Shown: positions 29,076 through 31,773 of the stretch, one piece after another
How the letters are laid out: each line of letters begins with the position of its first letter
Numbering within the stretch: the stretch's first letter is position 1
Assembly: GCA_029259335.1 (NCBI GenBank)
Contig: JAPDIY010000055.1
Span: forward strand, 1 to 44,004
Length of the DNA stretch: 44,004 nt
Origin: Archaeoglobi archaeon
GTDB lineage: Archaea > Halobacteriota > Archaeoglobi > Archaeoglobales > Archaeoglobaceae
Reading direction: 5' to 3'
Notes under the pieces: model-generated
What the model was told of the DNA's origin: nothing
Database searches by the model: none
The model's input: the letters and a program-made list of their open reading frames with translations, nothing else
Position numbers and translations under genes: made by a program

Positions 29076-29600
29076 ATGGGCAGAAAGCGAATCTACGAAG
29101 TTGTAAAGCATTTACCAGCAGAAGAGCTCGATAAAAGGATCAAAAAGCTCGAAAAAGATACAAGAGTTCTTAAAAGACTGTACTTCATAAGATATCTCTA
29201 CAGAGGAATGAGCGTTGAGGAAGCTGCCGACCTAGTAGGAGTTACCAAAGCTACGGGCTATGCATGGCTTAAGAGATGGAATTCCAAAGGTTATGAAGGC
29301 TTAATTCCGGAGTTTGGTGGAGGAAGACCTTCTAGACTTACAAAGGATCAGAAGGAAGAACTCAGAGAAATGCTCAAGAAAAAGGATTCGTGGACAACGA
29401 AAGAAGTTCAGGAACTCATTGAAGAGGAGTTTGGAGTTAGCTATTCTTCGTGGCAGGTCAGGAGAATTCTCAGATCTTTCGGAATGAAATATGCTAAACC
29501 CTACCAGAAAGATTACAGAAGGCCTGAAAATGCTGAAGAGACTTTAAAACGCACGTCACTTCGTGACGGCGAACACAACAATGTTTCTAACTGGGACTAA
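29076..29600 (+). mobile_element. IS630-like transposase, N-terminal part only
   Basis: The 174-codon frame from ATG 29076 encodes a helix-turn-helix DNA-binding region of IS630-type transposases. GMSVEEAADLVGVTKATGYA is the first helix-turn-helix, GYEGLIPEFGGGRPSRLT the linker, and VSYSSWQVRRILRSFGMKYA the second. Similarity ends near KDYRRPENAEETLKR (about 29550); the last codons run into another sequence. The catalytic DDE half is absent, so the element is dead or depends on a second frame lost here. A TATA-like ATTTATACC lies about 25 bases before the ATG. It replaces the middle of an RND transporter gene. Inverted ends could not be identified. Confidence 0.75.
29554..29568 (+). repeat. 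Short perfect hairpin at the transposase/transporter junction
   Basis: CGTCAC-TTC-GTGACG forms 6-base arms with a 3-base loop. It lies exactly where transposase similarity ends and just before the transporter fragment starts, so it may be the end of a mobile element or a scar of the rearrangement. Confidence 0.45.
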
Positions 29601-29959
29601 ACAGACGATGATGTCCATAGCATTAAACTCAATAACCCTCGGTTTGGGTATAGACTTCTCAATACATGTGCTTGAAAGATATTTCGAGGAGTGTGAGAGG
29701 TTTACACCTGTTGAAGCTGTGAGAAGAACAATTGAGAGAACTGGAAAAGCTATAACAACCTCGGCCCTTACCATGGCTGGTGGTTTTGGATCCCTAATGT
29801 TCTCATCATTCCCAATTGTACAAAATTTTGGCTTTATAGCCTTAGTTGCAATCATATTCAGCCTGATTGCTGCATTGACAGTTGTTCCAGCTTTTCTGAT
29901 GCTCACAGAAGGTCTCGATGTCAGAATTTCAGGAGCCACTAAACCATCCCACGCATGAT

Positions 29960-29971
29960 ACTCATGTGAGT
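29960..29971 (+). promoter_or_regulatory. Inverted repeat before the Roadblock-operon promoter
   Basis: ACTCA-TG-TGAGT lies 11 bases before the TATA-like element at 29982. The place, directly upstream of a core promoter, suits a regulator site, but the repeat is short. Confidence 0.35.
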
Positions 29972-29981
29972 TATGAAAAAA

Positions 29982-29990
29982 TTTAATATA
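29982..29990 (+). promoter_or_regulatory. TATA-like element of the four-gene operon
   Basis: TTTAATATA centres about 26 bases before the ATG at 30012, as for a leaderless transcript. It lies after the earlier in-frame ATG at 29973, so it rules against that start. Confidence 0.55.
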
Positions 29991-30011: not shown

Positions 30012-30317
30012 ATGTTGAAAAAAATTTATTCAGTTATAGGTCACGGTGCTTGTATAATAAAGGATGGGCAGATTTCAGAAGTTTATCTTCTAAGCGATGA
30101 TGAGATTAATCTAATTTCACAATTCTGCCCACTCACCCTCTCGCTACCTGACAACTTTAAACTGGGTATATTCGAACACGAAAAAGGAAAGGTCGTGCTT
30201 TTCAGATATGGAGACGGGTTTATAGGCTTCCCCACGAAAAAGGAAAATGTGATGGAATTGATTAAAGACATTGAGGTGAAACTGAATGATCAAATTTTAT
30301 CTTCTCAAAATGGGTGA
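30012..30317 (+). CDS. Small protein of unknown function, first gene of a four-gene operon
   Basis: The 101 residues have no signal or membrane helix. The pattern of strands and helices (GHGACIIKDGQISEVYLL, then a helix, then KLGIFEHEKGKVVLFRYGDG and a C-terminal helix) would suit a Roadblock/LC7 or profilin-like fold, but there is no diagnostic motif. I chose ATG 30012 because the TATA element lies 26 bases before it; ATG 29973 would precede the likely transcript start. It overlaps the next gene by 32 bases. From the neighbours it may be a soluble partner of the Roadblock-like protein two genes on. Confidence 0.65.
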   Translation: MLKKIYSVIGHGACIIKDGQISEVYLLSDDEINLISQFCPLTLSLPDNFKLGIFEHEKGKVVLFRYGDGFIGFPTKKENVMELIKDIEVKLNDQILSSQNG

Positions 30318-30618
30318 TAAGATTCAGGAGCACGGAGATAGAGCTGAGAACTACAAAAAATTGCTCCTCAAACTTGATGAAATGAACTTAAAGAAGGCAA
30401 TAATCCTCCTCCAAGAAGATGCCATTTACTTCGAAAAAGATGGTATTTCAGTTATTGTTTGTGTGAGCAGAGAAAATATAGGCGCTGCAAAGATATTCTC
30501 GAAGAAGATAATGAAGAAATCGAAGAAGGTAGACTTCAGCTCGCTTGAAGAAGCATTTAAGTTTGCCGAAGAGCTTGACAAGATGAATTTGAACGGTATT
30601 GCAAAATTTTTAAGGTGA
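30286..30618 (+). CDS. Small protein of unknown function, second gene of the operon
   Basis: The 110-residue protein is charged, with an N-terminal helix (DRAENYKKLLLKLDEMNLKK), a pair of strands (AIILLQEDAIYFEKDGISVI) and helices rich in Lys and Glu. It has no membrane segment and no enzyme motif that I can see. GAGGTGA lies 6 bases before ATG 30286, which decides this start although it overlaps the previous gene by 32 bases; ATG 30310 lacks such a site. The next gene begins 4 bases after its stop. A divergent Roadblock-type fold is possible but unproven. Confidence 0.65.
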   Translation: MIKFYLLKMGDKIQEHGDRAENYKKLLLKLDEMNLKKAIILLQEDAIYFEKDGISVIVCVSRENIGAAKIFSKKIMKKSKKVDFSSLEEAFKFAEELDKMNLNGIAKFLR

Positions 30619-30622
30619 GACA

Positions 30623-31132
30623 ATGCTGTACGAAATTCTGGCAGTTGTCTGCGGTGGAGTTGTAGGATTCGCAGCAACATGGAAATTTGTCTCTACAGGG
30701 CTTAAAGAGGAGAAGAAAAAAGAGGAAGAAATCAGAAAGGCAAAGATTTCATCAATTTCGACAGCTGTCGAGAGAAAGGTTGCCGAAAGCAGAATGGCAA
30801 AACCTCCCTCAGACCTCAGCGAATTTGTAAACTACCTCAGCGATAAGTACATACTCGGAGAGATAACAATTCTAACCCCCGAAGGTCTGCCCGTTGTTTC
30901 AAACAGTTCAACTGCTGAGGAGGATGCTGCAATAGCTCCTGAGATACTGAGGGTTGCCAGAAGGCTCTTAAATTCTAACAGAATCGTTCTTTCTGGAGAA
31001 GATAGCAGAATACTCGTCATGCAGGCAAATCCGGATGTCATACTCCACGCGAAAATTGCGAGGGATATATCCAAGAAGGAGATGGACAGAATTCGAGATG
31101 AGATAAATATGGTTATGGAGGGGTTGATATGA
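30623..31132 (+). CDS. Membrane-anchored Roadblock/LC7-like protein
   Basis: The 169 residues start with a membrane helix (about 4-22). A charged coiled coil follows (LKEEKKKEEEIRKAKIS), then a domain with the pattern of Roadblock/LC7: ILTPEGLPVVSNSSTAEEDA, a helix, VLSGEDSRILVMQANPDVIL and a closing helix. Roadblock domains in prokaryotes pair with small GTPases of the MglA type or serve as scaffolds. No GTPase gene is present in this window, so the partner is elsewhere or is one of the neighbours. Its end overlaps the next gene by 4 bases. The fold assignment is by eye. Confidence 0.7.
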   Translation: MLYEILAVVCGGVVGFAATWKFVSTGLKEEKKKEEEIRKAKISSISTAVERKVAESRMAKPPSDLSEFVNYLSDKYILGEITILTPEGLPVVSNSSTAEEDAAIAPEILRVARRLLNSNRIVLSGEDSRILVMQANPDVILHAKIARDISKKEMDRIRDEINMVMEGLI

Positions 31133-31773
31133 TTCCAGCAGTTCTCATCCTTCTGACTCTTGCAACGATGCAGGCTCATCCCGGTGATGTTCTGAATATA
31201 ACCATAACTGATTCCGCAGTTCTGAGCGTGAATGATAGTTGCGTTTATTTCCCGGAAAGCATGGCAAGCACTCTGAACGCTGATGCGGGAACTCATGAGG
31301 TTAAGGTGGGAATCAACTGCTCTGCAGGTGTTAAGGAAATAAAGGCCAATGGAGAGAGTTTGATGCTGATAGATGTTCAAGAAGCTGGCAGCAGTTACAT
31401 TGTGAACTACGCGGCAGAAATGGAGAGACAAAACCTTGCCCTTCAAAAGGAGGTTAAGAATCTAAAGTTACAGCTTGAAAAACTGGGAGAAAAGCTGAAT
31501 GAGCTTAAGACAAGGTACGAAGAGTCCGAAAGGCAGAAGGGATTGCTCGAAGTTGAGAACAACCTGCTCAAAGATCAGATAAAATCACTTGAGGATAAAC
31601 TCAACAGAACCCAAAAAGAGCTTAAAGAGAAGAAAGGAACTTTAAGCGTCCTCCAGACCGAACTGCAGTCGATGAACGAGCAAAGTCAGATATACAGATT
31701 GGCGACGTTCTTCATTCTCTCGCTCTTCGTTGGTTCCTACGCTGCTCTGCTGTACGTCTCAAGGAAAGAATAA
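31129..31773 (+). CDS. Exported coiled-coil protein with C-terminal membrane anchor
   Basis: The 214 residues begin with a signal-like segment (MIPAVLILLTLATMQAHPG). A small beta-rich domain with two cysteines follows (about 20-88; DSCVYFPES, GINCSAGVKE). A long coiled coil (about 100-188; LALQKEVKNLKLQLEKLGEK) leads to a membrane helix (about 192-210) with a short basic cytoplasmic tail (YVSRKE). It would project from the membrane outward. The ATGA overlap with the Roadblock-like gene and the ordered operon suggest one assembly with a cytoplasmic and a surface part. Only 5 bases separate its stop from the convergent flavin reductase gene. I do not recognise a family. Confidence 0.7.
   Translation: MIPAVLILLTLATMQAHPGDVLNITITDSAVLSVNDSCVYFPESMASTLNADAGTHEVKVGINCSAGVKEIKANGESLMLIDVQEAGSSYIVNYAAEMERQNLALQKEVKNLKLQLEKLGEKLNELKTRYEESERQKGLLEVENNLLKDQIKSLEDKLNRTQKELKEKKGTLSVLQTELQSMNEQSQIYRLATFFILSLFVGSYAALLYVSRKE

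Follow-up and report, generated by a model that had tools for sequence, protein, structure and literature searches.

A conserved operon of Archaeoglobaceae encodes a predicted membrane Roadblock platform linked to a MinD-type ATPase

We analysed a 44,004-nucleotide window (contig C11 of an Archaeoglobus-type genome, genus label g1) and found a conserved four-gene operon, A-B-C-D, in which C is supported by profile comparison as a membrane-anchored Roadblock protein whose family is linked to a MinD ATPase. ATPases of the MinD kind determine where in the cell such machines as pili are placed. We consider it probable that the four products form a membrane platform of Roadblock-fold proteins which docks or regulates a MinD-type ATPase, with D as the external part. 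The results computed for this were the predicted folds of A and B, the Roadblock nature of C, the gene order, the co-occurrence of C with MinD, their linkage, and the absence of MglA-like GTPases. The fold assignments and the MinD linkage are well supported; complex formation, topology, the effect on MinD and the cargo are inferred.

All four genes are on the forward strand: A at 30012..30317 (101 aa), B at 30286..30618 (110 aa), C at 30623..31132 (169 aa) and D at 31129..31773 (214 aa). The reading frames are open exactly as an earlier sequence-only reading of this DNA had described them, with a 32-base overlap between A and B, a 4-base gap between B and C and a 4-base overlap between C and D. 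The four-gene order, for which that reading had looked to a survey of other genomes, is conserved within Archaeoglobaceae: it recurs with similar spacing in relatives at identities down to about 28-50%, including five other g1 genomes, genera g7 and g10 and one g12 genome. Since order and spacing are kept in such distant relatives, genes A to D are real, and the start of gene A at 30012 is backed by orthologs. An alignment-based scan found the same operon in public loci of Archaeoglobus sp. and Archaeoglobales MAGs; a single-protein scan of genome contigs for relatives gave no match. A contig filed under Candidatus Bathyarchaeota JdFR-04 (L120) is nearly identical to one of Archaeoglobus sp. 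UBA234 (L121/L103), and its placement is probably a binning error. One g10 genome, G242, has C broken across frames, with a transposase-like ORF at the expected place of D (L025 1016-2426).

A BRE/TATA-like promoter element (29975..29990, forward strand) lies about 26 nt 5' of the gene A ATG and is kept in six congeneric (g1) genomes. This spacing fits a leaderless promoter, as had been claimed, and from it we infer that the gene A transcript is leaderless. The short inverted repeat reported ahead of the operon is present at 29954-29966 (CATGA-TAC-TCATG), but its arms measure only 5+5 bp, the repeat tool did not report it, and it shows no clear conservation. The transposon debris described just before the intact operon is also there: at 29076-29958, a truncated transposase-like ORF overlaps, or is fused to, what is left of the 3' end of an MMPL/RND transporter gene. 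A close relative has this gene at full length (750 aa) upstream of A (G005, L099 6492-8744); in g10 genomes it was not found beside A.

Protein C comprises one N-terminal TM helix (residues 5-23, 30635..30691, by hydropathy), a charged linker and a C-terminal Roadblock-like domain (residues 67-168, 30821..31126), both features again on the forward strand. Profile-profile comparison (hhalign) of C with 26 canonical archaeal Roadblocks gave 65-79% across the full domain, and 40 column-shuffled controls never rose above 2.1%, which bears out the earlier description of a membrane-anchored protein with a Roadblock-like C-terminal part. The Robl_LC7 Pfam score of C is 12.4 bits, below the curated gathering cut-off of 23; the best member of the C family reached 0.002 in a single-sequence search, still sub-threshold, and neither A nor B matched Robl_LC7. 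The TM helix is followed by a Lys/Arg-rich segment, so the C-terminus of C is probably cytoplasmic.

Neither A nor B has a usable Pfam or NCBIfam match, in keeping with their earlier description as small soluble proteins of no known family; what that description missed is their fold. AlphaFold2 models from small alignments had a pLDDT of 84.6 for A (layout H-E-E-H-E-E-E-H) and 80.6 for B (E-E-H-E-E-E-H, core about 90), A showing the Roadblock layout with its first helix and B the layout without it and with a long C-terminal helix. When the models were searched against the PDB with Foldseek, nearly all of the best 50 matches were Roadblock/Ragulator/MglB chains, with Asgard Roadblocks, Ragulator/LAMTOR, MP1-p14 and MglB at the top. 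The E-values are modest (4e-4 to 2e-2), which is to be expected of proteins this small, and the evidence lies in the consistency of the match list. Profile comparison of the sequences gives A a weak similarity to Roadblocks that exceeds shuffled controls, and gives B none. On the strength of the models, both are predicted to have the Roadblock fold. The one Roadblock protein previously recognised in the operon, C, is thus joined by two more in a predicted total of three, all of them distant, not canonical, members of the Roadblock/LC7 superfamily. We discarded the idea, prompted by a resemblance in the C-terminal motif, that B is a reduced DUF2226/DUF4388-like protein, as hhalign gave 1%.

Eleven Archaeoglobaceae genomes, the window's own among them (G000:C66), carry at a further, unlinked locus a paralogous pair of overlapping genes, A'-B' (L183 7317-7929; L184 7962-8664; L185 7916-8609; L186-L193). 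Homology between B' and B is clear (97%); A' aligns with A over its whole length with a score of 27.5 against 10.9 +/- 2.6 for shuffled sequences. That two different Roadblock-fold proteins are encoded by overlapping genes duplicated as a pair suggests an A/B heterodimer.

The genome to which the window belongs encodes its MinD on contig C22 (2143-2934), not adjacent to A-B-C-D. This MinD is an ortholog of A. fulgidus MinD-1 (PDB 1HYQ; 1e-146) and carries a deviant Walker A motif (KGGTGKTT) and a basic, amphipathic-looking C-terminal helix (ALAKMLKIFRRRR), a putative membrane-binding tail; the gene 3' of it encodes a 62-aa TM coil protein. In genus g4 the gene order is C-D-MinD-TM coil, and in genome G018 a same-strand run comprises a 241-aa protein, A, B, C, D, MinD, a 60-aa TM coil protein, a canonical Roadblock and a DUF2226 protein. 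In g1 these genes lie at three separate places (ABCD; MinD-TM coil; Roadblock-DUF), and the canonical Roadblock was not found in the window's own genome, which is 89% complete, so that this is possibly a gap.

We compared the distribution of C and MinD in 55 Archaeoglobaceae genomes, 19 with C and 36 without. The MinD clade of 1HYQ orthologs occurs in 19/19 C-bearing and 8/36 C-lacking genomes (Fisher 8e-9, or 7e-13 with divergent MinD clades left out), values that are only indicative, as the genomes are related and kinship was ignored. Five C-lacking g8 genomes keep a divergent MinD. Some members of g4, g12 and g10 lack C and MinD jointly, which points to several correlated events. A and B are narrower in distribution: the 15 C-bearing genomes of g1, g7, g10 and g12 all have the two genes (15/19 of all C-bearing genomes), and none of the four C-bearing g4 genomes or of the C-lacking genomes does, one of the latter giving a weak B' match only. 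They are also missing in methanogens; this absence, together with that from g4, indicates that A and B are not needed for core function.

Outside Archaeoglobaceae, the C profile identified 51 C-like loci, 46 of which have MinD nearby (44/51 within 400 bp and on the same strand), usually in the order DUF/TM-Roadblock/MinD. The five exceptions are four Methanocella-type loci and one plain Roadblock. At the Methanocella-type loci (L013, L027, L028 and L030) the TM-Roadblock, without an adjacent MinD, stands beside HAD-family phosphatase-like and methyltransferase-like genes. Gene neighbourhood and co-occurrence together indicate the MinD ATPase as the partner of the Roadblock operon, and we propose that the TM-Roadblock may act as a regulator of this ATPase, in a role like that of MinE or FlhF.

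By analogy with MglB/MglA and Ragulator/Rag, we suggest how such a platform could operate. C would cross the membrane once and keep its Roadblock domain on the cytoplasmic side, and A and B, probably as a heterodimer, would dock on it to form a cytoplasmic Roadblock face on the membrane. D would be exported, its head carried on a coiled-coil stalk that the C-terminal helix fixes in the membrane, and would link the assembly to the envelope outside. MinD encoded on C22 could bind the Roadblock face as an ATP dimer with its basic tail helix at the membrane, and the platform might set where or how long MinD stays, or its ATPase cycle. As the outcome, a membrane machine would be positioned or switched, conceivably type IV pili or, in certain groups, a [NiFe] hydrogenase.

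D consists of a hydrophobic N-terminal stretch, a head, a coiled coil (about residues 92-187, 31402..31689) to which coiled-coil families match, and a C-terminal TM helix (about residues 190-210, 31696..31758, by hydropathy), both on the forward strand; it is accordingly still predicted, as before, to be an exported coiled coil with a C-terminal anchor. The low-scoring coiled-coil family matches were rejected as homology and taken as composition. The head contains three N-glycosylation sequons and two cysteines, and no known domain was recognised in it. D stands next to C across Archaeoglobaceae. The suggestion that the four products form a membrane-spanning complex is a fair reading. The predicted export of D and membrane passage of C also invite another explanation, a transmembrane sensor in which D senses the outside and signals through C to the cytoplasmic Roadblocks, MinD being only a downstream output; the canonical Roadblock-DUF pair of g1 does lie beside a HAMP-domain receptor-like protein (L098). 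D, however, has no recognised ligand domain, the loci contain no kinase or other output, and D is missing in methanogens although the module persists there, all of which make the sensor unlikely. A platform that docks or regulates MinD remains the reading we favour.

What such a platform would serve was sought in the neighbourhoods, up to 20 kb, of 20 non-Archaeoglobaceae loci. Type IV pilus genes adjoin the module in seven of them, with a secretion ATPase and TadC in six; the seventh has only a prepilin peptidase within the stretch covered. A Vhu-like [NiFe] hydrogenase adjoins it in another six, and the remaining loci show neither cargo. In g1, the genus of the window, neither pilus nor hydrogenase genes are adjacent to the module. 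Pilus TadC is nearly universal among the genomes compared, so its co-occurrence is uninformative, and the archaellum was rejected as cargo since archaellum genes do not track C. Judging from gene neighbourhoods, type IV pili are our most likely single guess, which agrees with Makarova et al. 2016 (PMC4858521), where FleN/MinD ATPases are predicted to be pilus regulators and Roadblock proteins are noted in pilus loci. The hydrogenase loci (L163, L164, L172, L173, L174 and L177, from methanogen-type, Methanomicrobia-type genomes) combine a DUF/TM-Roadblock/MinD/Roadblock module with a ferredoxin and often a maturation protease, and one Archaeoglobaceae genome, G018, also has a hydrogenase-linked module (L097 8713-16389). 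In G005 (L098 7584-10494), the neighbours of a canonical Roadblock and a DUF2226-like protein are a HAMP-domain membrane protein that lacks a signalling domain, a helical protein of 68 aa and another protein whose match is weak and CDC48-N-like.

The hydrogenase neighbours, found in 6/20 methanogen-type loci and in G018, often with the protease, could also mean that this MinD is a CooC-like metal-insertion or maturation ATPase for hydrogenase, assisted by the Roadblock proteins. We hold this to be very unlikely: pilus genes instead adjoin the module in 7/20 loci, in g1 the module has no hydrogenase beside it, and the own-genome MinD matches TIGR01969 (5e-118) far better than it matches metal-insertion relatives.

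Roadblock proteins might instead regulate a small Ras-like GTPase of the MglA/Rag type encoded elsewhere, as the sequence-only reading had supposed for this operon. The characterised prokaryotic Roadblocks (MglB) act on MglA (PMC4316618), and canonical Roadblocks of other Archaeoglobaceae adjoin an MglA-like GTPase, a KaiC-GTPase fusion (for instance L071). At E < 1e-29, however, an MglA-like GTPase was found in 0/19 C-bearing and 16/36 C-lacking genomes with one query, remoter GTPases lying outside its scope; three C-bearing genomes gave only remote matches, at E of about 1e-6, inside large proteins. The NTPase that is linked to C is the MinD ATPase. The supposition is not supported, and GTPase control appears highly improbable here.

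Roadblock proteins, MinD ATPases and the presence of both near pilus genes are already known. What appears new, as not found in the literature searched, is a conserved membrane Roadblock dedicated to MinD that has been expanded to three Roadblock-fold proteins and an exported coiled coil; searches on Roadblock with MinD or hydrogenase, and on DUF2226, returned no description of the module. More broadly, we see an even chance that in many archaea the membrane Roadblock is a dedicated MinD receptor or regulator, that Archaeoglobaceae have enlarged it to a Ragulator-like assembly with three or more Roadblock-fold subunits and an extracellular coiled coil, and that ATPases of the MinD class thus have Roadblock platforms just as GTPases of the Ras class do. 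The structure of A. fulgidus MinD has been solved (1HYQ) and no partner has emerged in the literature searched; C offers a specific, conserved candidate receptor whose fold is known. Proteins of the source organisms should be thermostable, which makes the MinD-Roadblock question directly testable. If correct, the proposal would place MinD ATPases, besides Ras-like GTPases, under Roadblock regulation, which accords with the early suggestion of Koonin and Aravind 2000, as cited in PMC4316618, that Roadblock proteins are general NTPase regulators, and would mean that Ragulator-like building plans exist outside Asgard archaea and eukaryotes.

Among known systems, the own-genome MinD, as the 1HYQ ortholog, belongs to the archaeal MinD/FleN-FlhG family (arCOG00589; TIGR01969). 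Haloferax MinD2 and MinD4 position archaella and chemosensory arrays, and no Roadblock partner is mentioned for them (PMC11588486), whereas here a membrane Roadblock is a near-constant neighbour of MinD and archaellum genes do not track the module. Makarova et al. 2016 (PMC4858521) note Roadblock (arCOG02603) and FleN/MinD (arCOG00589) around archaeal type IV pilus loci, as well as operons that join MinD to unrelated membrane proteins; the excerpt used does not single out the TM-Roadblock as the constant neighbour of MinD, the A/B fold or the hydrogenase-linked versions. The module resembles MglB/MglA in placing a Roadblock beside a P-loop NTPase that controls position, including that of type IV pili. 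It differs in that the NTPase is a MinD ATPase and not a Ras-like GTPase, and in having a membrane-anchored C and several different Roadblock-fold proteins; the cognate MglA-like GTPase that would mark an MglB-type GAP is missing, at the threshold given above, from all 19 C-bearing genomes. Ragulator (LAMTOR1-5) sets two Roadblock heterodimers on a membrane anchor and recruits Rag GTPases; the operon likewise encodes several different Roadblock-fold proteins and a membrane anchor, which would hold them at the membrane, and the one query used found no Rag-like GTPase. Structures of LAMTOR and of Asgard Roadblocks are matched by the models of A and B, with sequence similarity near nil. LAMTOR1 is lipidated, whereas in the operon described here the anchor is a TM helix fused to the Roadblock itself.
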